The position numbers were made by a program, and so were the translations under genes. 34,589 bases of DNA, taken from assembly GCA_030612585.1 (NCBI GenBank), contig JAUWNP010000028.1, forward strand, positions 1 through 34,589. Reading direction: 5' to 3'. Below the pieces are notes generated by a model. That model was not told the DNA's origin. It saw nothing but the letters and a program-made list of their open reading frames with translations, and did not search any database. Position 1 is the stretch's first letter. Each line of letters opens with the position of its first letter. This stretch comes from Anaerolineae bacterium (lineage in GTDB: Bacteria > Chloroflexota > Anaerolineae > B4-G1). This document shows positions 7,264-34,589 of the stretch, piece by piece.

Positions 7264-7950
7264 TTACGACTGTCTTTGATTCTTGAGCTGCCCGCGTCCG
7301 GCCCACATCGGGCGCCCGGTTTCGTCGCGCAGGACAAGGGTTTCACCGGTGGTGAGGTTCTCGACGGTTCCCGCCTTGAACTCACCATCTTCGTGGAAGC
7401 CGGTCACCGACACCTCATCCCCGATCACCAGGGCAAAACCTTCCCGATACGAAGCCTGTCCCAGGCCGACCAGCACATCGCCCTCGGCAGTCTGGACGGT
7501 GATGTCGCCGTCCACGACAGTCACCTCTCCAGTCAGGGTTTCCCATTCGACGGTTCTCACCGTCTCATTCCGGCCCTGGCCTGTGCCGGAACTCTGTCCG
7601 CGCCCGTCGAAAGCGCCCTCGGTACCGAAGGCTCCATCTCCAAGCGCCCCGCGGCCCTGCGCCGTCTCACTGCGCTCATAAGCGTTCCGATTGAGCACTT
7701 CCGGCTCGCTGCCGCCAGACTCAACCGCGGCCCCACGGCCCTGCGCCATCTCACCGCGCCCATAAGCATTCCGATTGAGCACTTCCGGCTCGCTGACGCC
7801 AACCTCAACCGCGGCCCCGCGGCCCTGACCACCGGGGGAACCTTGCCCAGCCTCGACTTCCCCGGGGTTCAGCAGGATGTAGGCGCTCCCTGCCAGCAAC
7901 GCTACAGCCAGCAACCCGATTACACCGTAACTCAGAACTTTCTTCGTCAT
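7264..7950 (-). CDS. Membrane-anchored protein with 28-residue repeats and a C-terminal OB-like domain
   Basis: Hypothetical exported protein of 228 residues. An N-terminal hydrophobic segment (VIGLLAVALLAGSAYILL) is an uncleaved anchor or signal. Residues about 42-97 are two copies of a 28-residue unit containing QGRGAAVE and SEPEVLNRNAY, with a third, partial copy (QGRGAL) after them. The last 90 residues (starting near TLTGEVTVVDGDI, with GDEVSVTGFHEDGEFKAGTV and ETLVLRDETGRPMWAGRG) look like a small beta-barrel domain seen in Chloroflexota next to cytochrome-like membrane proteins. No enzyme motif is visible. AAGGAGG precedes the ATG. Upstream is the DUF4405 gene, and an octamer array fills its leader. 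A role in a membrane redox complex is inferred from context only. Confidence 0.78.
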   Translation of the reverse strand: MTKKVLSYGVIGLLAVALLAGSAYILLNPGEVEAGQGSPGGQGRGAAVEVGVSEPEVLNRNAYGRGEMAQGRGAAVESGGSEPEVLNRNAYERSETAQGRGALGDGAFGTEGAFDGRGQSSGTGQGRNETVRTVEWETLTGEVTVVDGDITVQTAEGDVLVGLGQASYREGFALVIGDEVSVTGFHEDGEFKAGTVENLTTGETLVLRDETGRPMWAGRGQLKNQRQS

Positions 7951-7966
7951 TTTTTGTACCTCCTTG

Positions 7967-8046
7967 GTTTAGTTTGTTAGTTTGTTGGTTTGTTAGTTTG
8001 TTGGTTTGTTGGTTAGTTGGTTTGTTGGTTAGTTGGTTTGTTTATT
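7967..8046 (-). repeat. Tandem octamer array (CAACAAAC-type) in the 5' leader
   Basis: About nine tandem copies of an 8-bp unit, (C/T)AAC(A/T)AAC on the minus strand, occupy almost the whole gap between the DUF4405 stop and the ribosome binding site of the next gene. The array ends directly at AAGGAGG. The tract is G-poor on the transcribed side, so its RNA would be unstructured. Confidence 0.85.
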
Positions 8047-8078
8047 TCTGATGAGATTTCTCTACTGTTTTGAACGAC

Positions 8079-19796: not shown

Positions 19797-19807
19797 TTTA
19801 GCTCCTT

Positions 19808-19838
19808 GAATCTACGAATATACGAATGTACGAATCTA
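19808..19838 (-). repeat. Tandem NATTCGTA octamers before the corrinoid gene
   Basis: Read on the minus strand, four tandem octamers of the form NATTCGTA (the last one partial) run from the stop codon of the MttB-like gene to the ribosome binding site of the corrinoid gene. The TAG stop (19836-19838) is part of the array. Confidence 0.75.
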
Positions 19839-21297
19839 CCACGCCGGTAACCGATCCATTTCGGCGGACTGTGCTGCTCGCAGTGTGATGGCCTCCAATT
19901 CGCGAGTTACTTCATCGGGCAGAGACTTGGGTTCATAGGCAGCGATTATTGCTTCGACGCGCCGATGGGCGCGCTCGGCGGCGTCCAGACTGCCCTTTGC
20001 CTCCCAGTTGCGGCGGAAGTCGCGGTCCACCACCGGACTGGGGATAAACAATTCCTCGCGGAACCAGCGGCGCGTGTGTGGTATGCTCAGGAAATGACCT
20101 GTGTGTCCCACCTGGCGGATGACCTCCAGCGCCAGCGGCGTCTCCCGCTCGACCATCCCGGCCACCAGTCTCTTGGCCATCCCCACGATCTCAGCGTCAA
20201 TCACCAGTTTCTCCAGGCTGAAGCAACTCTCGAAATCGAGCATACCGGGGCCGGAGATCATGTTGATGCCTGCCAGCGCCCCCAATACTGCGCCAATGCC
20301 CGATTCGAACCCGCATTGGGTTGTCCACCACCTTGGCATCGGACATCCCCAGGTAGGCGTGGGTGGGTAGACCGAGGTGCTTGCCCACCTCAGCGTAGGC
20401 ACAATCAATCATCATCGTCTCGACAGCGCCCATCGGGGGAGTGCCAGTGCGCATGTCGAAGGCAGCGGGCGAGCCGCCCCAGACGATAGGAGCGCCGGGG
20501 TTAACCAGTTGGTGAATGGTGACGCCGCTCAGGTTCTCGGCAGCGTGCTGGACAACCGCGCCCAGGAGGGTCGCCGGTCCGGTGGCGCCTGCCAATGGCA
20601 TGCTCACCAGTTCCGCCGGCACCCGGTACTGCGCGCAGTCCATCAGGTTCTCGCAGGTGATCTCGGACCACAGAAGTGGTGGGGAGGGGCAAGCGTCGAA
20701 AACGGCTATGGGCCTCTCCGCCAGCGCCTCCTCACTGCCGACCACCACCAACAACATGTCTTTCATCACCCCCCAGGTTTCGACAGCAAACGCGCCAGTG
20801 ACGACCGGCTTTCGGCTGTGGAGGAGAACCAGATAGAGGCGGTAGAGGTCAGCGATCTCTTGCGGGACGTCCCCGCAGACGAGGGAGGTGGCGACAGCAT
20901 CCAGCGCATCCAACCCATCGGCCAGTTTGACGAAGTGCATGAAGTCGGCGGTGACAGGGAAGCGCGAGCGTTTCGCGCCGTGGTCAAGAATCTCAATGGC
21001 AGCCGATCCAGGATCGAAGTGCACGTCGTCACCGCCATAGTGCACCGCCGGTTGGCCATCACCGTTGTAGAGATAGAACGACGAGGGGATAGTCTCAACC
21101 GCGCGGCTGATCAGGTCGGCTGGGATGCACGCCACCTGCGCCTCGAAGTCCACATCCGCACCGTGCCCGGCCAGGAGATGCAGCGCACGCTCGGAGTGGA
21201 TCTGCACGCCAGGGTCATTCAATAGGTCATAAGCCTCGTAGATGATGCGCTCAATAGTATCGCGGGACAAGAATTGCAGATTGGGTCGCATGGTCAC
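19836..21297 (-). pseudogene. MttB-family (trimethylamine/betaine-type) methyltransferase with a frameshift
   Basis: Corrinoid-dependent methyltransferase of the MttB superfamily, which demethylates quaternary or tertiary amines. The first part runs from GTG 21297 (AAGGAG 5 nt upstream) to the motif AYLGMSDAKVVDN, then leaves the family sequence. One frame over, the protein continues as QCGFESGIGAVLGALAGINM and ends normally at 19836. The switch is at the GGG run 20318-20320, consistent with one extra base. Removing it gives one 486-residue protein of normal family length. No in-frame amber codon (pyrrolysine) is present. Either a sequencing or assembly error, a recent mutation, or less likely a programmed shift. 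It is the first gene of the methyl-transfer operon. Confidence 0.85.
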
Positions 21298-21507: not shown

Positions 21508-24500
21508 TCACCTCCTTGCGGCTTCCAGCAGTTTTTCTACCTGGTATCCCGATTCCTCTTCAGCCTGCTGCAACTTCCTCACGATGTCGTAAGCCGTGAC
21601 GATTTCCTGAGAGACCTCCGCTGCCGAACGCAGAGGATCGGCGCTGATCGTAACCACCGCCACCAGCAGCATCCACCACAGCAGTTGTTCAAATGCTTCC
21701 TTGTTGAACCACAAGACACCTCGGTAGCGATTCACCTGTAGGAATTGCTGCACCTCGTCGTCCTTCAGCCAAGACTCCAACACGCGATATGCCTGCTTCT
21801 TCTTAGGGGCCTCCGTTTCAAACCAGCGCTGGTGACTGGTGAGTATCTTGATCGTCGTAACCGCCTGCCAGGCCGCGCCTTCGTCCAGTCCCAGGTCTTG
21901 CAGCGCGCCGGCGATGATCTTGCCCAGCAGCCACTCGTCAATCCAACTGCGGCTGATCCGCGCAAAGGCTGCCTCGTCCACAACTTTCCCCAAAGCGTGC
22001 GTGAAGAGCCAACCCAGGAGCGTGGGCCAGGCCGCCGGATCGTCGCGCAGGCCTGCCCTGCCTGTCCCGAGCGCAGCCGAGGGAAGCGGAGCCGAAGGGC
22101 CTGCCCTGAGCCCCTCGCCCTCGCTCGTGGTAAACTCCGCTGGAGGGCCGGCCTGCAAGTATTCCGTGGCCCACTTGTACTTCCGTGAGCGGGGCAGAGG
22201 GAAGCGGCTTCTCAGAACGGGCAGGTGCAGTAGTGCCTCCAACTTCTGCCGGATCTCCTGAGCAATCGTTGTCTCATCCCCACTCCCTGCGGTGAGTTGT
22301 TTGATCTCACGGAGCAGTTGAGCCACTTTCTGTTCCACCTGGGGCGCAACTTCCGCATTGAGTTGTCCGTCAGGCTCAGTCACGCGGGAATCCACGAGCC
22401 AACGGAACGCGCCAGCATTGACCAATTCCCTGAACGGGTAATGGATGGGTCGCAGGAACACTTCTTTCAAGGTCTCTTCGATGTCTGGCACTCCCCGCCC
22501 GTTCAGATAGGCTGTGAGTTGCGCATACTGGTGGAACTCGTTATCCCGCACCTCGCGGAAGTCGAGAAAGACGTGACATTTGTACGCGCTCAGTTCCACG
22601 TACAACCCTTTTTCGCACAACTCCTTGCTGCTCCGAATGTACTCCAGGCCGGTGACGTAGTCTCGGAAGATCGTGAAGGTGTCTCCGTCGTCGTGCAGCG
22701 CCAGACCTTCGCCCAGGGATTTCTGCACCAGTAACTTCTCGTCGCCGTCCTCCCCGGTCTTCACCGCATAAGCGGCGGAGGTGCGAATCCATCCCCGGGT
22801 CTCGGCGTACTTGTTGTGGTAGACCACCAGTGCCCGTTCGTCGCCTGTCCTGCCACCGCGAGTACTCGTGGCGGTGAGCCTGTCGAAGGGCGCAGCCGAG
22901 GGACCAACGCGGTTCGAGTAAGCAAAGACATCCTCGTTGACGTAGCCTTCCGGGGTAAAGAGATCGTACAGCAGAAAGTTCGCCACCTCCGCAAACAGAT
23001 ATCGCCGGCGCAGCAACGGGAAGATCTCCCGCTCGTGCCGCTCGACCAAGTAGCCGTCCGGCTGTTCGTCCCAGTACGCCCGGCGGTATTCCATCCCGTA
23101 TTTCTCGGTAAACCCCTCGATTTGACCGTGCCCGAACATCGGCAGACCCGGCATCGTCGCCATCATAGTGCAGATGCCGAAGTATTTATCGCCTTTGCCA
23201 AACTGATCCACCGCCGTGCGTTCATCCGGGTTATTCATGAAGTTCACGTACCGCTTTAGAATTTGCGGATCGAACTCCAGTGTGTTCTTCACGACGCTGC
23301 GGTACTTTCCGTTGTCCTCGTCCCTGAGTATGTTCATGAACGCGCTGTTGTACACGCGGTGCATGCCGAGAGTGCGGACGAAGTACCCTTCCATCAACCA
23401 GAAGGCTTCGGCCAGCAACAGAGTATCCGGCACCTCCTGCGCCACGCGGTCCACCACCTCGCGCCAGAATTCGTTCGGTATGAGCGCATTAAACTGTGCT
23501 CGCGTCAGGCCATGTTCCGCCCGCGAGGGTATGTCCCCCCCGGCGCCTGGTTCCGGGAACCACAAGCGCTGGTAGTGCTTCTTGGCCAGGGTCATCGCAG
23601 CGTCAAAACGGATGATGGGGAATTGGCGAGCCACGCGCAGAATCATCTGGATCACGGCCTCCCGGACTTCAGGGTTGAGGTAGTTCAACTGGGCGGTGTC
23701 GTTCCAGGGCATACTGGTGCCGTCGTTGCCGTGGTAGATGTACTTCTCGCTGCCGGTCCAATGATCCACCCGCTTGAAGACTACCGCCGCATCGCTGCGG
23801 TCGTAGTAATGGTCTTCCAGATAGATACCCACGCGCTCATCCCGCGACAGGTTGGGGCCATTGAAGGTGTAGGAGGGGAAGGGGCTATAGTCCAACGAGA
23901 TGAACCAATCTGGGTGCTCGATGACCCATTTAGCGTCAATGCCCACGTGGTTGGGCACCATGTCGCTGGCCAGACGAATCCCTCGTCTCCACGCTCGCGC
24001 CCGCAAATCCTGGTATGCCTCGTCACCTCCCAAATCCGTCGCGATCTGGTAATCAAACAGCGAGTAGGCCGACGCGACAGCCTCGGGATTCCCGCACATT
24101 TTTTTGATCCTTCGCGATGCCGCGCTGCGCTCCCAGAGGCCGATCAGCCACAAGCCTGTAAAGCCCCGGCGAGCCATGGCGTCCAGTTCCTCGTCGGGAA
24201 TGTAATCCAGCCGCGTCATCGGGCGGTCATATTGCTTGGAGAGTTGGTCGAGCCACACGTAGACGTTCTTGGCGATCAACACCAGACTGGGCATCCACTC
24301 CATGTCGGGGCTGAAACGCTCGGCCTCCAGTTCCAACCCTGTGAACTCAACCACCCGGCTAGGGCCAGGCCCCAGGAAGATCGCTTTTTCTTCCTCTCTG
24401 ATCAGGTCCAGGCTGCTGAGCAGGCGGTACAAGTATCCCCCCAGCAAATACCCCCACTGTTCCCGAATGTACTCTAGTTGTCCAGGAAGTGAGTGGGGTA

Positions 24501-25176
24501 CAGCGATGGCGGGGCGGCGCAGCATATCCACCAGGTTCTGGTTCTCGGGGCCGAAGGGGGGTTGCGTCTCGAAGAACTCGTGCAGACCAGATATGACTTG
24601 CCGATAGGCTGTTTCCTTGTCCAGCGCGGTGTCGTCGAACAGTTCCAGAAATGGGGAGAAGGCCGGGTTGGCATTTGCCAGCCAAAGCATCAACATCTCT
24701 TCCAGCACGACTTGGCGATGGGGAACTCCAGCGGTTTCTCCCTCCAGGTAGTCTTCAAGCGCGACCTCTCGCCGGTAGACGGTCAGGGGGGGAAATTCGT
24801 CCGCAAATCGGTACAAGGCCGCGTCCACCGCTTCTTGACCCAGTTTTTCGTACAGCCAATCCAACGCCTCCTGCATGACTTCTGGTTTCTTCTGCTCGCG
24901 GTACAAGCCGACCACGTAGTGCATGATTTCGTCTATCAGCCCCATCGCGTTGATCTGCCCGGCTTTCACGGCTTGCTCCGGGAACCTGACCAGGTCTCGC
25001 TTTTCATTCATCCTCTGTGCGAACATCCGTGCGGCGTGAAAGTTGGCAAAGATAACGTTTCCGCTGAGGGAGAACAGGGATTGCTCAAACTGATATCGGT
25101 CTCGCGCTTTGCGGGAGAGGTGGAACTCCATCGTGATACGCGATGCGCGATGCGTGATGCGTGATGCGTGGCGCAT
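21508..25176 (-). CDS. Large GH13 alpha-amylase-family protein
   Basis: Alpha-glucan-active enzyme of 1222 residues with a GH13 barrel in the middle. Region I is SDMVPNHVG (Asp405). The nucleophile Asp is in IIRFDAAM (525), the acid/base Glu in LLLAEAFW (590) and the transition-state Asp in NNPDERTA (651). About 370 residues of helical sequence precede the barrel and about 450 follow it, with no domain I can name. It follows glgA and glgC on the same strand, so a role in glycogen or maltodextrin turnover is likely (inference). The start ATG 25176 has AGGAG 6 nt upstream. The first 15 residues are encoded by a heptamer repeat array, and family-like sequence starts at MEFHLSRK. Two in-frame repeat insertions are present near 22065 and 22873. 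Confidence 0.9.
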   Translation of the reverse strand: MRHASRITHRASRITMEFHLSRKARDRYQFEQSLFSLSGNVIFANFHAARMFAQRMNEKRDLVRFPEQAVKAGQINAMGLIDEIMHYVVGLYREQKKPEVMQEALDWLYEKLGQEAVDAALYRFADEFPPLTVYRREVALEDYLEGETAGVPHRQVVLEEMLMLWLANANPAFSPFLELFDDTALDKETAYRQVISGLHEFFETQPPFGPENQNLVDMLRRPAIAVPHSLPGQLEYIREQWGYLLGGYLYRLLSSLDLIREEEKAIFLGPGPSRVVEFTGLELEAERFSPDMEWMPSLVLIAKNVYVWLDQLSKQYDRPMTRLDYIPDEELDAMARRGFTGLWLIGLWERSAASRRIKKMCGNPEAVASAYSLFDYQIATDLGGDEAYQDLRARAWRRGIRLASDMVPNHVGIDAKWVIEHPDWFISLDYSPFPSYTFNGPNLSRDERVGIYLEDHYYDRSDAAVVFKRVDHWTGSEKYIYHGNDGTSMPWNDTAQLNYLNPEVREAVIQMILRVARQFPIIRFDAAMTLAKKHYQRLWFPEPGAGGDIPSRAEHGLTRAQFNALIPNEFWREVVDRVAQEVPDTLLLAEAFWLMEGYFVRTLGMHRVYNSAFMNILRDEDNGKYRSVVKNTLEFDPQILKRYVNFMNNPDERTAVDQFGKGDKYFGICTMMATMPGLPMFGHGQIEGFTEKYGMEYRRAYWDEQPDGYLVERHEREIFPLLRRRYLFAEVANFLLYDLFTPEGYVNEDVFAYSNRVGPSAAPFDRLTATSTRGGRTGDERALVVYHNKYAETRGWIRTSAAYAVKTGEDGDEKLLVQKSLGEGLALHDDGDTFTIFRDYVTGLEYIRSSKELCEKGLYVELSAYKCHVFLDFREVRDNEFHQYAQLTAYLNGRGVPDIEETLKEVFLRPIHYPFRELVNAGAFRWLVDSRVTEPDGQLNAEVAPQVEQKVAQLLREIKQLTAGSGDETTIAQEIRQKLEALLHLPVLRSRFPLPRSRKYKWATEYLQAGPPAEFTTSEGEGLRAGPSAPLPSAALGTGRAGLRDDPAAWPTLLGWLFTHALGKVVDEAAFARISRSWIDEWLLGKIIAGALQDLGLDEGAAWQAVTTIKILTSHQRWFETEAPKKKQAYRVLESWLKDDEVQQFLQVNRYRGVLWFNKEAFEQLLWWMLLVAVVTISADPLRSAAEVSQEIVTAYDIVRKLQQAEEESGYQVEKLLEAARR
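22065..22110 (-). repeat. PELVEG-type repeat cluster inside the GH13 gene
   Basis: Words of the CCGAG-cgcagCCGAGGGA and GCCGAAGGGC kind are clustered here on the plus strand. Translated on the minus strand they give the low-complexity LRAGPSAPLPSAALGTGRAG, in frame. Confidence 0.55.
22873..22903 (-). repeat. Second PELVEG-type insertion inside the GH13 gene
   Basis: Plus-strand GTGAGCCTGTCGAAGGG followed by CGCAGCCGAGGGA encodes PSAAPFDRLT on the minus strand, in frame, within the region after the GH13 barrel. Confidence 0.6.
25135..25169 (-). repeat. Tandem ACGCATC heptamers at the GH13 gene start
   Basis: On the minus strand five heptamers (three ACGCATC, then GCGCATC and GCGTATC) lie between the ribosome binding site/ATG at 25176 and the ancestral ATG at 25131. 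Three heptamers equal seven codons, so the array is translated as the repeating peptide HASRITHRASRIT without breaking the frame. Confidence 0.8.
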
Positions 25177-25279
25177 GTAAGACTCCTTTGGGGTTTGAGC
25201 GAGACGTTGATCAGATGGTGCACCGGTTTTGAGGTGTGACATTTGGCTGGCCTGCTGCCTATCTATTTCCAGAGAACTT

Positions 25280-29190: not shown

Positions 29191-29202
29191 GGAGGTGCAT
29201 GA

Positions 29203-30414
29203 GTGAAGGAAGTCGTTATCGTAAGTCCGGTGCGCACGCCAGTAGGGGCTCACGGCGGTGCGCTGCGTAGCAAGCGGGCTCAAGACCTGGCCGAGATCGT
29301 CTTTCGGGCAGTGTTCGAGCGCACAGGGCTGGATCCGGCAGTGCTAGATGAGGTGATCCTGGGTTGCATTGGACAACCCTCCGACGCGGCCAACATTGGT
29401 CGGGTGGCGGCGCTGATGGCAGGAGTGCCCATCGAGGTGCCGGGTTTCACCGTCCAGCGCAACTGTGCCTCTGGCATACAATCCGTTACCTCGGCCTACC
29501 AGGCCATCCAGGCAGGCGATGGAGAGGTTTATCTCTGCGGCGGCACCGAGAGCATGAGCGGCATCCCCTACATTCTCAAAAAGGCCCGCTGGGGGTACAA
29601 ACTCCGCCACGCCGAACTGACCGACGCCCTATGGGAGGGGCTGACCGATCCCATCTGTGGGCTGATCATGGGCGGCACTGCCGAGAACCTGGCGGAGAAG
29701 TACGAACTCTCCCGCGAGGAGCAGGACAAGTACGCCGTCCAATCCCACAAGAAGGCGTTTATGGCCCAGCGGATGGGGAAGTTCGACGACGAGATCATCC
29801 CTGTCGAAATCATCAAGAAGGTGGCCGGGCGAGAGGTGGCGCGAGAGAAGATCATCCACGACGAGACGATCAACCCCGGCCTGACGGTGCAGAAGGCGGC
29901 GCTCTACCCGACCGTTTTCAAGAAGGGCGGCACAGTGACTCCGGCCAACGCCTGCCCCATCACCGACGGCGCTGCTGCGATGATCGTCTGCACAGCGGAG
30001 AAGGCGAAGGAGTTGGGTCTCAAGCCCACAGCCCGCATCGTCAGTTACGCCTACGCGGCGGTGGACCCAGCCTACATGGGCATCGGCCCAGCCTATGCCA
30101 TGCCCAAGGCGCTTAAGCGAGCGGGCCTCACCCTGGACGACATTGAACTGATCGAACTGAACGAGGCTTTCGCCGCGCAGGTACTGGCAGACGCCAAGGA
30201 GATGAAGGCCCAAGGACACAACTGGGACTGGGACAAGGTCAACGTCAACGGCGGCGCTATTGCCCTGGGGCACCCCGTGGGCTGCACTGCTGCCAAACTG
30301 GTCGCCACATTAACTCACGAGATGCAGCGGCGTGAGGTACGCTATGGCATGGACACGATGTGCGTAGGCGGTGGTCAGGGCGGGGCGCTGATTCTGGAAC
30401 GGATACCGCTATGA
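29203..30414 (+). CDS. Acetyl-CoA C-acyltransferase (thiolase)
   Basis: Thiolase of 403 residues catalysing the last, thiolytic step of beta-oxidation (3-ketoacyl-CoA + CoA to acyl-CoA + acetyl-CoA). The nucleophilic Cys88 is in [11 protein letters not shown]. The C-terminal motifs are [25 protein letters not shown] (His357) and [14 protein letters not shown] (Cys387), so the active site is complete. The start is a GTG with AAGGAGG 7 nt upstream. Its TGA stop is immediately followed by the left arm of the first octamer element. Confidence 0.96.
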
Positions 30415-30981
30415 GGTGGTAGATTGGGAAATTGGGAAATTGGGAAACTGGTAAATTGGGGAGAGGATAAAGGTATGGCGGAGCGGGGGCAGCGCGGGTT
30501 TGAGGATCTGGAGTGCTATCAACTGGCGTTGCAGGTTTTGCGCGAGGCGTATCGTGTTGCTAAACTGCTGCCACCGGAGGAGAGGTACAACCTGACCCAC
30601 CAGATGCGCAAGGCAGCGGTTAGTGTGGTACTGAATATTGCTGAGGGCTATGGGCGCTATCACTACCTGGACAGCCTGCGTTTCTATTACATCGCTCGTG
30701 GCTCTCTCGACGAAACCCTGAGTGGTTTTGTCATCTGCGACGAAGTGGGATACACCTCTGAGGAGTTGCCTCGTCAACGTGAACTTTGTCACAGTGCTCT
30801 GCGCTCGCTCAACGGCTACATTCGTTACATTCGCAAGCGACAACAGGGACATCAAGAGTACGGCGACCGGCTTCTTCACGAAGATAGCCCACCCTATACA
30901 GTCACGCCCGAATCACTGGTGGAGAAATAGCACACCAATATACCAACTTACCAATCTACCAATCTACCGATATACCAACAC
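30415..30981 (+). mobile_element. IVS-like element 1: four-helix-bundle gene between inverted octamer arms (intact)
   Basis: The left arm (30415-30460) is about five octamers of the AAATTGGG/AGATTGGG/AAACTGGT kind, starting right after the thiolase stop. The right arm (30934-30981) is six octamers ACCAATNT, the inverted form, ending a few bases before the AGGAGG of the next gene. The core encodes the four-helix-bundle protein. The transcript could fold the arms together over the core. The layout matches intervening sequences of bacterial 23S rRNA genes, but lies between protein genes. Confidence 0.7.
30475..30930 (+). CDS. Four-helix-bundle protein (S23/IVP family)
   Basis: Protein of 151 residues in the four-helix-bundle family that includes the protein encoded in 23S rRNA intervening sequences and is structurally related to the Avd protein of diversity-generating retroelements. 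Hallmarks are the opening FEDLECYQLALQVLREAYRV, then LTHQMRKAAVSVVLNIAEGY and YYIARGSLDETLSGFVICDE. Translation starts at ATG 30475 behind purine-rich sequence (GGAGAGG, AAAGG); the upstream in-frame start at 30424 lies in the repeat arm. The family's function is unknown; nucleic-acid binding is suspected. It has nothing metabolic in common with its neighbours, which supports insertion. The C-terminal 20 residues are variable. Confidence 0.93.
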   Translation: MAERGQRGFEDLECYQLALQVLREAYRVAKLLPPEERYNLTHQMRKAAVSVVLNIAEGYGRYHYLDSLRFYYIARGSLDETLSGFVICDEVGYTSEELPRQRELCHSALRSLNGYIRYIRKRQQGHQEYGDRLLHEDSPPYTVTPESLVEK

Positions 30982-30996
30982 GAGGAGGTAACAGAC

Positions 30997-32220
30997 ATGT
31001 ACATCTTCAAAGCAGGAGTGGTCGGCGCAGGGACAATGGGCGGCGAGATTGCCCAGGTCATCACCTACTCCGGCCTGCCGGTGGTGCTCAAAGATATTGA
31101 CCAGGAAATGCTGGATAAGGGGATGGAGAAGGCCCGTTCCATCTACCAGCGGCGGGTGGACAAGGGGAAGATGAGCGAGGGCGAGATGCAGTCCAAACTG
31201 GACCTGATCACGCCGACCCTCGCCTACGACGAATTCGAGGACGTGGACATTGTCATCGAGGCAGTGCCCGAGAAGATGGGGGTCAAGCGGGCCGTGTTCA
31301 AAGAACTGGAGAAAGTCTGCCCCGAGCAGACGATCTTCGCCAGCAATACCTCGGCGCTTTCGATCTCTGAGATGGGCGCGGCCACGGACAAGCCCCACAA
31401 GATGATCGGCATGCACTTCTTCAACCCCGCCAGCGTTATGAAACTGGTCGAGGTCATTCCCGGCCTCGACACCGGCCAGGAGACAGTGGACGACGTGGTG
31501 ATGTTCGCCGAGAGCCTGCGCAAGCTCCCAGTAGTGGTCCAGGAGTGCCCGGGCTTCCTGGTCAACCGGCTCCTGATGCCCTACCTCAACGAGGCGACCA
31601 AAGCGTTGGAGGAGGGAGCAGCGACGGCGACGGAGATTGACCAGGCGGTTGTCGCGTGGGGCATGCCGATGGGGCCTTTCACGCTGATGGATATGCTGGG
31701 CATTGACGTGTGCGGCCACGTGGGAGAGTACCTACACTCCGAGTACGGCGAGCGGATGAGCCCTGCCTCGCTCTTCTTCAAACTGGTCGAGGCCGGACGG
31801 CTGGGCGAGAAGTCCGGCGCAGGCTTCTATGACCACCCCGGTGGCGAGTCGGACGCGGTCAATGGGATGATCAAGGAACTTCAGGAGTCCGGGGCTGTGC
31901 CCGCCGGCACCAAGTTCTCCATCGAGCGGTTGATGTATCCCCTGATCAACGAAGCCGCCCTTTGCATCCAGGAGAACATCGCCAGCATCACCGACATTGA
32001 TATGTCAATGGTCGCCGGCACGGGGATGACCTACGGCGGCGAGCGAGTTGGCCCCCTGGTCATTGCCGACAAGATCGGCCTGGACACGGTGGTAGAGACG
32101 ATGGAGGCATTGGCGCAGGAACTGGGGCCCCGCTTCCGTCCCTCCCGCCCGCTCAAGTTGCGCGTCCGCGCCGGGCATCTAGGGGAGAAGACGGGCAAGG
32201 GATTCCACGAGTATGCATAG
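30997..32220 (+). CDS. 3-hydroxyacyl-CoA dehydrogenase
   Basis: NAD-dependent oxidation of 3-hydroxyacyl-CoA, third step of beta-oxidation; 407 residues. The Rossmann motif is GAGTMG (10-15), followed by VIEAVPE and ASNTSALSIS. The catalytic His140 is in MHFFNP with Glu152 in VEVIPG. Two C-terminal helical domains follow (PGFLVNRLLMPYLNEATKAL and FSIERLMYPLINEAALCIQE), as in the dehydrogenase half of FadB-like or bacterial HbdA-like enzymes of this length. GAGGAGG precedes the ATG. Its TAG stop is immediately followed by the left arm of element 2. Confidence 0.96.
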   Translation: MYIFKAGVVGAGTMGGEIAQVITYSGLPVVLKDIDQEMLDKGMEKARSIYQRRVDKGKMSEGEMQSKLDLITPTLAYDEFEDVDIVIEAVPEKMGVKRAVFKELEKVCPEQTIFASNTSALSISEMGAATDKPHKMIGMHFFNPASVMKLVEVIPGLDTGQETVDDVVMFAESLRKLPVVVQECPGFLVNRLLMPYLNEATKALEEGAATATEIDQAVVAWGMPMGPFTLMDMLGIDVCGHVGEYLHSEYGERMSPASLFFKLVEAGRLGEKSGAGFYDHPGGESDAVNGMIKELQESGAVPAGTKFSIERLMYPLINEAALCIQENIASITDIDMSMVAGTGMTYGGERVGPLVIADKIGLDTVVETMEALAQELGPRFRPSRPLKLRVRAGHLGEKTGKGFHEYA

Positions 32221-32531
32221 GTTGGGAGATTGGTAGACTGGGAAACTGGTAGATTGGTAGATTGGGGGGAGGGAAGGGAGTATAGCGGAACGGGGACAGC
32301 GCGGACTTGAGGGCCTGGAGTGCTACCAGTTGGCGTTGCAGGTCTTGCGGGAAGCGTACCGCGTTTTGTCGGGTGGCTGCCGCCGGAGGAGAGGTACAAT
32401 CTGGCACAGCCCTCCCTATGTTGCTACTCCTGAACCAGCCACAGAGGAATAGTACACCAACTCACCAATACTAATCTACCAATCTACCAACTACCAATAT
32501 ACCAATGTACCAATATACCAATATACCAACA
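32221..32531 (+). mobile_element. IVS-like element 2: decayed copy between octamer arms
   Basis: The left arm (32221-32270) has units GGTAGACT, GGGAAACT and GGTAGATT. The right arm (32455-32531) has about nine units CCAATNTA/CCAACTA, ending at the AAGGAG of the enoyl-CoA hydratase gene. The core is a broken copy of the four-helix-bundle gene of element 1. Boundaries repeat the pattern of element 1: directly after one stop codon and directly before the next ribosome site. Confidence 0.75.
32282..32452 (+). pseudogene. Remnant of a four-helix-bundle (S23/IVP-like) gene
   Basis: Aligned by eye with the intact gene at 30475. The start codon is ATA instead of ATG (32282-32284). The next part (AERGQRGLEGLECYQLALQV) is clearly homologous. 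Two extra bases near GTTTTGTCGGG shift the frame. The sequence then jumps from the RYNL segment (after about 40 codons) to the C-terminus, where VATPEPATEE and TAG correspond to VTPESLVEK and TAG. About 290 bp of the intact gene (roughly 30600-30886) are missing. It cannot make the four-helix protein. Confidence 0.88.
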
Positions 32532-32544
32532 TAAGGAGCGAATA

Positions 32545-33339
32545 ATGGGAGATTGGCAATACATCCGAACTGAAGTCGCAGACAAGATCGCGGTGCTGAC
32601 GATTGACCACCCGCCGGTCAACTCTTTCAACACGCAGGTGGTGACCGAGTTGGAGCAGGCACTGGACGAACTGCTGGCGGCCGACGAGGTCAAGGCCATC
32701 ATCATCACCGGTGGTGGCACCAATGCCTTCATCGCCGGGGCGGACATCCCCGAGATCAAAGCATTGTTTGAAAAGGCCGAGGACACCGCTGCCAGCGATT
32801 TTTTAGAGCGGGGGCATAGGACCTTCCTCAAGATCGAGAAAGCCACCAAGCCGATCATCGCCGCCATTAACGGCTTCTGCCTGGGCGGTGGCTTGGAGTT
32901 GGCGATGGCCTGCCATATGCGCATCTGCTCCGACCGAGCACGGCTGGGGCAACCGGAGATCAACTTAGGGATCATTCCTGGCTGGGGCGGCACACAGCGA
33001 CTGGCCCGCCTCACGAACAAAGGGAAGGCCATCGAGTTGATCCTCACCGGTGATATGATCACTGCCCAGGAGGCCTACCGGGTGGGGTTGGTGAACAAGG
33101 TAGTGCCGGCCGGGGCGGTGCTCAAGGAGGCGCAGGGTCTGGCTCGCAAGATCGTCTCCAAGTCCAAGTTCCCCGCTGCTGCCGCGCTGCGGGCCGTCTC
33201 CGAGGGACTACAAGTCTCCATTGAGGAGGGGCTCAAGATCGAGGCGGAGCAGTTCGTGATTCTGGCGGAAAAGGAAGATCCTCTCGAGGGGCTCAGCGCC
33301 TTCCTCGAAAAGCGGCAGCCGCAGTTCAAGGATCAGTAG
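32545..33339 (+). CDS. Enoyl-CoA hydratase
   Basis: Crotonase-family hydratase of 264 residues adding water to trans-2-enoyl-CoA, second step of beta-oxidation. The oxyanion-hole segments are AFIAGADIPEIK and NGFCLGGGLELAMAC. Both catalytic glutamates are present: Glu118 in GGGLELA and Glu138 in GQPEINLGIIPGWGGTQRL. AAGGAG lies 7 nt before the ATG and comes straight after the right octamer arm of element 2. The stop codon TAG is shared with the start of the third octamer array. Confidence 0.96.
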   Translation: MGDWQYIRTEVADKIAVLTIDHPPVNSFNTQVVTELEQALDELLAADEVKAIIITGGGTNAFIAGADIPEIKALFEKAEDTAASDFLERGHRTFLKIEKATKPIIAAINGFCLGGGLELAMACHMRICSDRARLGQPEINLGIIPGWGGTQRLARLTNKGKAIELILTGDMITAQEAYRVGLVNKVVPAGAVLKEAQGLARKIVSKSKFPAAAALRAVSEGLQVSIEEGLKIEAEQFVILAEKEDPLEGLSAFLEKRQPQFKDQ

Positions 33340-33454
33340 ACTGGTAGATTGGTAGATTGGGAAACTGGTAGACTGGTAGATTGGTAGAGCACCCAATGTA
33401 CCAATATACCAATCTACCAATATACCAATGTACCAATGTACCAATGTACCAGCC
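33337..33454 (+). repeat. IVS-like element 3: coreless octamer inverted repeat
   Basis: The left arm (33337-33390) is six octamers TAGA(C/T)TGG or GAAACTGG. The right arm (33391-33454) is eight octamers TACCAATN. With no core between them the arms form a hairpin of about 50 bp with a mismatch roughly once per octamer. The left arm starts on the TAG stop of the hydratase gene, and the right arm ends 1 bp before the AGGAGG of the next gene. Confidence 0.85.
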
Positions 33455-33468
33455 CAGGAGGACTGGCT

Positions 33469-34589
33469 ATGGACTTTACTCTTAGTGAAGAACAGCAGAT
33501 GTTCCGCGCCATGTTCCGTGACTTCTCCGCCAAGGAGGTCGCGCCCATAGCGGAGGAGATTGATCATGAGGAGAAACCCCCTCTGGATGTGCTCCGCAAG
33601 GCGGCCAATCAGGGTTTCCTGGGAGCAACGCTGCCAGAGGATTACTTCGGTGCGGAACTTGACGGGGTCAGTTATGCCCTGCTCATCGAGACGCTGGCCA
33701 AAGACTGCATGTCCACCGCCGTGACACTGGCGACGCACGTGAGCCTGGTGGCGATGAGCATCCTGGCCCACGGCACCGACGCCCAGAAGGAGGAATGGCT
33801 CCCGCCGATGGCTGCTGGCGAGATGATCGGCGGCTTCGCCCTCACCGAGCCAGACGCTGGAAGCGACGCAATGGCGCTCCAGACCCGCGCTACGCCAGAC
33901 GGCGACGACTGCCTGCTCGATGGCGTCAAGACCTGGGTCGCCAACGGTGAGATCGCCGGTCTCTTTCTGGTCTTTGCCCAAGGATCAGAGGAGGTCGAAC
34001 CATTCTTAGTCCCCAAGGACACCACCGGGCTGACGGTGGGCTACCGGGAGCCGACGCTGGGGCTGCGCAGCGTGACATTCAACACGCTTTACCTGGAAGG
34101 CTGCCGGGTGCCACAGGCCAACCGGCTTGGCGAGCCCGGCGAGGGGCAGACGGTAGCGCAGCAAGCGCAGGATCGAATGGCAATCGCGCTGGCAGCAGCC
34201 GGACTGGGAGTATCCGAGGAATCCGTGGACGTGGCGGCCCAGTTCGCCTCCGAACGGGTGCAGTTCGGCGTCCCTATTGCCAAGAAGCAGGCCATCCAAT
34301 CTTACGTGGCCCAGGCGCTGACCGAAGTGGAGGCACTGCGCTACCTGGTCTACCACGCTGCCTGGCTGGCCGATCAGGGTAGTGACTTTTCCTTCGACGC
34401 CTCGGTGGTCAAGGCCTTCAGCGCCCGCGTCGCCAGCAGCGTCACCAACCGTATGGTTCAGGTGATGGGCGGCTACGGCTACATGGAGGATTACCCGATG
34501 GCCCGCAAGTACCGTGATGCCCGCGCGCTGGGCATCATCGGTGGGCCGACAGAACTGCATGATGTCCGGATCGCTCAGCGGATCTTTGC
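33469..34589 (+). CDS. Acyl-CoA dehydrogenase (3' end outside window)
   Basis: FAD-dependent acyl-CoA dehydrogenase, first step of beta-oxidation; 373 codons before the window edge, nearly the whole protein. N-terminal helices (LSEEQQMFRAMFRDFSAKEV), the FAD/substrate segment GGFALTEPDAGSDA and the C-terminal QVMGGYGYMEDYPMARKYRD are all typical. Near the end the sequence reads ALGIIGGPTELHD, where many family members have Glu in YEGT as catalytic base. Here that position is Gly, as in isovaleryl- and long-chain types with the base on another helix. AGGAGG is 7 nt before ATG 33469. Confidence 0.95.
   Translation, partial: MDFTLSEEQQMFRAMFRDFSAKEVAPIAEEIDHEEKPPLDVLRKAANQGFLGATLPEDYFGAELDGVSYALLIETLAKDCMSTAVTLATHVSLVAMSILAHGTDAQKEEWLPPMAAGEMIGGFALTEPDAGSDAMALQTRATPDGDDCLLDGVKTWVANGEIAGLFLVFAQGSEEVEPFLVPKDTTGLTVGYREPTLGLRSVTFNTLYLEGCRVPQANRLGEPGEGQTVAQQAQDRMAIALAAAGLGVSEESVDVAAQFASERVQFGVPIAKKQAIQSYVAQALTEVEALRYLVYHAAWLADQGSDFSFDASVVKAFSARVASSVTNRMVQVMGGYGYMEDYPMARKYRDARALGIIGGPTELHDVRIAQRIF

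Follow-up and report, generated by a model that had tools for sequence, protein, structure and literature searches.

S23/IVP genes flanked by inverted arrays of 7- or 8-nucleotide units: a probable small mobile element in the gaps of an Anaerolineae beta-oxidation operon

We analysed a stretch of 34,589 nucleotides (nt) from an Anaerolineae bacterium (contig JAUWNP010000028.1, hereafter the window), at the end of which a beta-oxidation operon on the forward strand carries, in each of its three gaps, two short-repeat arrays in inverted orientation (arms) with or without a gene of the S23/IVP family between them. The operon comprises a thiolase (29203-30414, stop codon 30412-30414), a 3-hydroxyacyl-CoA dehydrogenase (30997-32220), an enoyl-CoA hydratase (32545-33339) and an acyl-CoA dehydrogenase starting at 33469, inside whose open reading frame (ORF) the window stops. 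Copy 1 of the element is intact. Directly 3' of the thiolase stop codon lies a left arm of TAGATTGG/GAAATTGG octamers (30415-30460, array 30423-30460), followed by a gene for a 151-residue four-helix-bundle protein (30475-30930) and by a right arm of ACCAATNT octamers (30934-30979) whose end adjoins the GAGGAGG ribosome site of the next gene. In copy 2, a left arm overlapping the TAG stop codon of the hydroxyacyl-CoA dehydrogenase (32218-32266, array 32218-32265) and a right arm stopping before an AAGGAG ribosome site (32468-32533) enclose a decayed IVP gene (32280-32452), in which the start ATG has become ATA and the middle is lost, with both ends recognisable and the first 86 nt at 83 % identity to copy 1. 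Copy 3 has no core: its left arm (33336-33388), overlapping the TAG stop codon of the hydratase, and its right arm (33393-33453, array 33393-33451) together make a 51-nt palindrome that is 82 % complementary. All three left arms thus start at or over the upstream stop codon and all three right arms end just before the next ribosome site.

An earlier sequence-only reading of this DNA had proposed this recurrent layout with an intact, a decayed and a coreless copy. Direct inspection and repeat-finding tools lead to the same picture, with a TAGATTGG-type left arm and a reverse-complement-type right arm in every gap from the thiolase to the acyl-CoA dehydrogenase. Strict octamers number 25 across the three gaps, whereas 500 dinucleotide shuffles gave 0.8 on average and never more than 5, and strict left units lie before right units in all three. 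The statement that elements fill all gaps of the operon holds for these three, while the short gap before the thiolase (29191-29202) contains none.

The view of the copies as one element type, some of them gene-less, was likewise borne out, as was the family assignment of the core: the IVP of copy 1 scores 90.6 bits against PF05635 (23S_rRNA_IVP/S23; cut-off 33.8) and 91.5 bits against TIGR02436. Among solved structures, XCC0516 (2gsc, E 2e-16) is the closest in sequence. An AlphaFold2 model (predicted local distance difference test score 86.5) matches 2gsc and the S23 protein 2rld in Foldseek, with weaker matches to Avd of diversity-generating retroelements (8ub7, 4dwl; TM-score on the query about 0.6, E 0.04-0.4). 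Modelling thus suggests a fold common to IVP and Avd, and an IVP-Avd homology is noted in the accessible part of PMC10053308. The neighbours of the window IVP are the thiolase and the hydroxyacyl-CoA dehydrogenase, with no reverse transcriptase beside it, in contrast to a diversity-generating retroelement. The ratio of nonsynonymous to synonymous change (dN/dS) is 0.053 against the IVP of locus L041 and 0.146 against that of L003, both with synonymous distances near saturation, and 0.168 between those of L120 and L124. Over six pairs the range is 0.05-0.17, which fits purifying selection on the protein. An argument from a basic surface was dropped because IVP charge is not uniformly positive, that of the window IVP being -2.

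We compared the operon with its relatives through a search with the dehydrogenase, which returned 63 loci, the 33 best (L001-L033) bearing Chloroflexota names; gap contents were compared for L001-L042 where both neighbours were present. They differ widely. The gap between thiolase and dehydrogenase (gap 1) contains a related IVP gene in L041 (607 nt) and L003 (709 nt). In L008 (12 nt), L013 (17 nt) and L012 (22 nt) it has almost no content, the sequence TACCAACACAAGGAGG in L012 resembling a final remnant of a right arm. Many other relatives carry gene-less arrays in gap 1 with units quite different from those of the window. Gap 2 of L002 holds a decayed IVP (77.5 % identity over 40 residues), and L006 and L010 carry a different IVP (38.7 % identity) 3' of the hydratase, flanked in L006 by GCAGGGA-type heptamer arms. 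The earlier reading had suggested looking for arms with and without the gene; both states occur, and with gap contents as variable as this, neither of the outcomes named as speaking against that reading was seen. Another small reading frame seems to be present between thiolase and dehydrogenase in L002, L017, L019, L024 and L027 and is perhaps an old member of the operon.

To what extent such arms accompany IVP genes elsewhere was estimated with an arm score, obtained by locally aligning the left flank to the reverse-complemented right flank. PF05635 genes were present in 5 of 5 genomes of relatives, 19 of 26 of the same class, 4 of 10 of other groups and 9 of 10 of further relatives. The first set of 80 open pieces gave 73 IVP genes after removal of five that were fetched twice or were the second piece of a broken gene and two with flanks below 60 nt. 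The arm score exceeded all 40 shuffles in 54 of the 73, and in 49 it ranked in the top 5 % against the 72 foreign right flanks, meaning that the arms match their own partner. A score of at least 34 was reached by 48 of the 73 IVP genes and by 10 of 435 control ORFs (at least 150 aa, same loci), with flanks counted from the called start codon for controls and from the domain start for IVP genes; the first, second and fourth best control scores belong to genes beside the elements of L003 and the window. By group, the same threshold was reached in 40 of 61 genes on the Chloroflexota side, 5 of 8 in Planctomycetota, 2 of 3 in Deltaproteobacteria and the single one in Nitrospirota.

Three further sets followed the same pattern to differing degrees. 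In the second set, 22 of 30 scored at least 34, with L184 being the element of L006, so that this set is not wholly independent. In the third, drawn from the class of an Alteromonadaceae genome (Gammaproteobacteria) and reduced by four contig-edge loci, the count was 21 of 28; in the fourth, one family within the Gammaproteobacteria set with many non-independent cases at one site, it was 13 of 30. Two of the three weak IVP matches adjacent to reverse transcriptases were scored (L092 and L199) and have no arms (score 24 each).

Many of our sources are metagenome bins, and one could suppose that the link between gene and arrays is an artefact of repeat-rich draft genomes. We regard this as extremely improbable, since same-locus control genes rarely show arms and the link is seen in complete, named plasmids: among the 12 examined out of 37 plasmid IVP records, ten score at least 36 and have no foreign partner that is equally good (9 of 11 cyanobacterial, 1 of 1 Gemmatimonadota). 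The two misses are from Pseudanabaena and from Oscillatoria, whose arrays on both sides do not invert. Inverted tandem arrays of period 7 or 8 flank most sampled PF05635 genes in several phyla, with a unit that differs from one element lineage to another.

The period of the arms is narrowly set. With lags of 3-12 tested in 48 elements, the best lag was 7 in 29 and 8 in 17, and the mean identity at lags 7, 8, 14 and 16 was 0.51, 0.42, 0.48 and 0.41, all remaining lags between 3 and 19 giving 0.23-0.31. In the later sets the best period was 7 or 8 in 22 of 22, 20 of 21 and 11 of 13 elements. G exceeds C in the arm 5' of the gene in 42 of 48, a property that in a palindrome is true on both strands. 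For 24 IVP pairs at least 55 % identical, mean unit similarity was 0.46-0.64 and period agreement 0.91-0.92; the corresponding values for pairs below 55 % were 0.20-0.25 and 0.47-0.54. At least seven of the 24 close pairs share a neighbour gene and hence may represent one and the same insertion. On an IVP tree, the period requires 7 changes; with labels shuffled the figure is 11.6, and values this low occurred in 3 and 1 of 500 shuffles, the tree covering the 34 of 48 elements that remained after exclusion of short or less regular ones and near-copies adding to the signal.

Evidence of movement comes from two loci of one genome, L120 and L124, which share 431 nt at 93.5 % identity. The shared sequence starts and ends inside the arms and the neighbours have no match, which shows joint movement of gene and arms in at least this genome. 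Two further pairs, L070/L100 and L068/L089, have related IVP genes (70-71 %) and similar units, with no matching neighbour found. In L023 (5500-6474) two IVP copies with an identical domain protein stand in tandem, separated by a spacer of GGAAGCT/GGAAACT heptamers in direct orientation. The mobility proposed by the earlier reading is in line with L120/L124, with the differing gap contents of the relatives and with the scattered occurrence of the unit. Searched as TGGTANAYTGGTANAYTGG (TGGTANAY), the window unit has 32, 309, 111, 81 and 12 matches in five relatives and none in five others, a contrast that is partly selected, the five carriers having been picked for the unit in the operon and the five non-carriers for its absence there. 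The search itself contributes the finding that the unit is dispersed over the carrier genomes and missing from the non-carrier genomes in their entirety. The backward control of TGGTANAYTGGTANAYTGG has no match in any of the ten genomes. A window-type IVP (at least 76 % identity) occurs in three of the five carriers, intact in two and as a fragment in the third. The L120/L124 unit, TCRAGGRN, behaves similarly, with 24 matches at 14 sites in its genome G034, three of which are the three IVP loci of that genome, and none in nine other genomes.

One explanation for this distribution is that slippage first made simple-sequence arrays between operon genes, which then served as landing sites for IVP, arms and gene being separate. 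Most arrays are indeed without an adjacent gene: the 32 unit matches of genome G001 fall into 13 sites, one of which (C422) holds an intact gene, and at another (C241) an IVP fragment lies at a distance of about 900 nt. The gene can be central, embedded in a left arm (L068, L075, L089) or adjacent to an entire palindrome (L070); array length varies freely, and slippage is the published guess for heptamer arrays in the accessible part of PMC4692102. On the other hand, close IVPs without matching neighbours (L120/L124, L070/L100, L068/L089) keep similar units and the same period, the G034 unit is present at all three IVP loci of that genome, and a matched inverted partner is not made by slippage alone. 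We consider separate arms and gene unlikely, and it is probable in our view that the IVP gene and its arms are one small mobile element with gene-less offspring resembling miniature inverted-repeat transposable elements (MITEs).

The arrays are mostly found at places where little damage is to be expected. We fetched twenty array stretches, 12 from G001 and 8 from G002, and stricter marking confirmed the array in 17 and found none in L206, L207 and L210. Twelve of the 17 lie at or between ORF ends and five inside a mechanically called ORF (L200, L209, L212, L215, L217). The ORFs around the arrays of L212, L215 and L217 may be over-long or spurious; in L200 and L209 the reading frame is open across the array. 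Homologues of the L200 protein, which we take to be HdrA-like, align in eight genomes up to residue 332-342 and resume at 371-374, and alignment with L222 and L224, the two of nine loci that gave a comparable piece, opens a gap of roughly 31 columns where the array lies. By these alignments, the L200 array is an in-frame insert in a protein whose orthologues lack it. In L209 (986-1092), in a presumably O-antigen-ligase-like protein, the in-frame array encodes a repetitive STNLP-type peptide. Rickettsia palindromic elements are palindromes in frame inside genes, and the insertions in L200 and apparently L209 resemble them in this respect; their sequence is to our knowledge unrelated to the arms described here, and we know of no protein partner for them. 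The Picosynechococcus element L234 sits inside a type III-B CRISPR operon, between the annotated cmr2/cas10 and cmr3.

The window itself holds three further single arrays of period 7 or 8 outside the operon gaps. A period-8 array of GTTTGTTG lies at 7961-8051, with no IVP gene seen beside it; another, of GAATCTAC/GAATATAC, lies between two ORFs at 19802-19842 and may be a copy of different unit that has decayed or has a single arm; a period-7 array (CGTGATG) occupies 25126-25182, near the 5' end of a large minus-strand ORF (21508-25242). Inside the ORF at 7264-7950 there is also an 84-nt direct repeat (7646-7827, 2.2 copies at 90 %).

S23/IVP genes are known from intervening sequences (IVS) in 23S rRNA, and the arms could in principle act at the RNA level, pairing in the transcript and being cut by RNase III so that the pieces tune the operon mRNA, with any movement incidental. 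An IVS such as that of Coxiella burnetii has in common with our element both the S23p/IVP family and the terminal inverted repeats. It also has tandem heptamers beside the ORF in strain-variable number: in the part of PMC4990558 open to us, GACAGAT heptamers lie just 5' of the S23 gene, vary among strains and are cut by RNase III at the first repeat. Gap 3 of the window folds strongly as RNA (-55.3 kcal/mol, z -8.26), and both neighbours lie on the IVP strand in 34 of the 58 IVP loci that have called ORFs to the left and right. In the remaining 24 they do not, and for copy 1 as a complete transcript the predicted folding does not exceed that of shuffled sequence (z -0.45). Selection on RNA structure was looked for in the arm mismatches: G.U is no commoner than C.A (149 compared with 158, p 0.65), which gives no indication that an RNA hairpin is under selection. 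The tie to rRNA processing suggested by the earlier reading likewise found no support: no Rfam rRNA match at gathering score was found in the window and 60 IVP loci (61 sources). The element is not an rRNA intervening sequence; its arms are long and lineage-specific arrays of 7- or 8-mers, and its gene-less copies are scattered. Taken together, these observations would make a role at the RNA level quite improbable. Shuffling the order of units within one arm lowers the mean complementarity score from 56.0 to 47.9 (p < 0.05 in 7 of 34 elements), a modest excess of in-register matching that is partly selection bias given that the arms were pre-trimmed to their best alignment. As this shuffling costs only part of the complementarity, most of it stems from the shared unit. 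We infer that the constraint on the arms is the unit as a recognition sequence in DNA.

Like a transposon or MITE, the element is one sequence at different sites of one genome (L120/L124 and the scattered arrays), which raises the question of what moves it. In REPINs (REP doublets forming hairpins; REP, repetitive extragenic palindromic sequence), many gene-less palindromes and a rarer protein-coding partner per lineage, the RAYT (REP-associated tyrosine transposase), coexist in a similar way, according to the portion of PMC3116915 available. It is conceivable that our arrays are REPIN-like palindromes moved by a RAYT or IS200-type HUH transposase with IVP as a passenger: the dispersed gene-less palindromes with one unit per genome resemble REPINs, and Y1_Tnp matches were found in 5 of the 11 genomes searched, all five carrying one of the two units. 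The partner here is, however, a four-helix-bundle protein and not an HUH transposase, the arms are tandem 7- or 8-mers, units follow close IVP relatives, and G002, with 309 unit matches the richest in arrays of the ten searched, has no Y1_Tnp match, with the proviso that it is a draft genome and may miss genes. Such a REPIN-like system with IVP as its passenger seems to us very improbable. Reverse transcriptase gave no match in the draft genomes G001 and G005. Neither a reverse transcriptase nor a Y1 transposase was found in every carrier searched, and both were set aside as a common mobiliser.

Heptamer arrays similar to the arms have been described before. In the sections of PMC4692102 that could be consulted, X. 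campestris is reported to have 186 GGGAATC-type arrays, with 70 convergent inverted pairs, and three heptamers of Calothrix are cited. GGGGA(T/C)T of Nostoc belongs to the same kind of repeat. These are likewise heptamer arrays, mostly intergenic and often inverted pairs; the link to IVP is new, and neither S23 nor helix bundle occurs in the text of PMC4692102. Our literature search, which left most subscription journals and all preprints outside, found no report that connects tandem inverted arrays to S23/IVP genes lying outside rRNA. The cyanobacterial heptamer repeats carry the name STRRs (short tandemly repeated repetitive sequences). In the family of genome G415, 11 of 30 IVP loci have at least two GGGANT motifs before and at least two ANTCCC after the gene, and their IVPs are 50-70 % identical to XCC0516; two of the eleven (L295, L296) have units that are GGGAGTG-like rather than GGGAATC-like. 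This family is probably Xanthomonadaceae, judging from the similarity to XCC0516. Nine of the eleven share placement before one gene, presumably accC. We predict that xcc0516 itself is flanked by such arms, our sample being without a genome that holds a close copy. The published xanthomonad heptamer repeats look like such arms, and the cyanobacterial ones probably do as well.

We hypothesize that each operon gap holds a copy of a mobile element in which a PF05635 gene stands between two inverted arrays, both built from a degenerate 7- or 8-mer peculiar to its lineage, gene and arms being inherited and moved as one. Gene-less palindromes with the element's unit would be MITE-like offspring or leftovers. 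Copies would be found mostly where little harm is expected, in the interval from a stop codon to the following ribosome site, and occasionally as an in-frame insert within a protein. IVP, which as a homologue of Avd is expected to form rings, may recognise the unit of its own arms in DNA form and recruit a host activity (a polymerase, recombinase or reverse transcriptase) that would copy the array-bounded DNA to new sites, after which slippage may lengthen and homogenise each arm. Our confidence in binding and mobilisation by IVP is clearly below that in the element itself.

Several observations weigh against this interpretation. Arm scores fall below 34 in 25 of the 73 IVP genes and below 30 in 19, and below 34 in 17 of the 30 of the fourth set. 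In the other two of the five unit carriers, the best IVP match is about 40 % identity or less, making the link between gene and unit incomplete. Over all pairs, unit similarity hardly correlates with protein similarity (Mantel p 0.14), and the idea that the two track each other at all depths failed. No target-site duplication was seen by eye in L120/L124, where a close empty site for comparison was lacking. With 12 of its 18 inner branches open, the dehydrogenase tree does not distinguish gain of the element from its loss. No movement enzyme was found, IVP being the sole protein encoded by the element, and we infer rather than observe that IVP binds the arms. In the published record, array data involving X. 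axonopodis speak against frequent movement in Xanthomonas (PMC4692102, accessible part), and the Coxiella S23 ORF is thought by its authors to be unexpressed and decaying (PMC4990558, as far as its text was available).

A wider proposal, possible and held tentatively, is that the IVP/S23 family makes and moves miniature elements across phyla, each lineage reading its own 7- or 8-mer, building inverted arrays and seeding gene-less copies. The cyanobacterial and xanthomonad heptamers would then be remains of such elements, and rRNA intervening sequences the few copies that landed in rRNA. IVP ORFs are known in 16S and 23S insertions of Candidate Phyla Radiation bacteria (PMC11270868, consulted in part).

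PF05635/TIGR02436 is a widespread family of no known job, and linking it to the arrays gives it a candidate target, its own array. The same link offers a candidate origin for heptamer arrays, so far ascribed to polymerase slippage in what is accessible of PMC4692102, and opens the origin of rRNA intervening sequences to testing. The constancy of the period at 7 or 8, common to close IVP relatives, is a quantitative clue to how IVP reads or copies DNA. Gene and repeats, which appear to spread together, may account for repeat families that have hitherto been unexplained.

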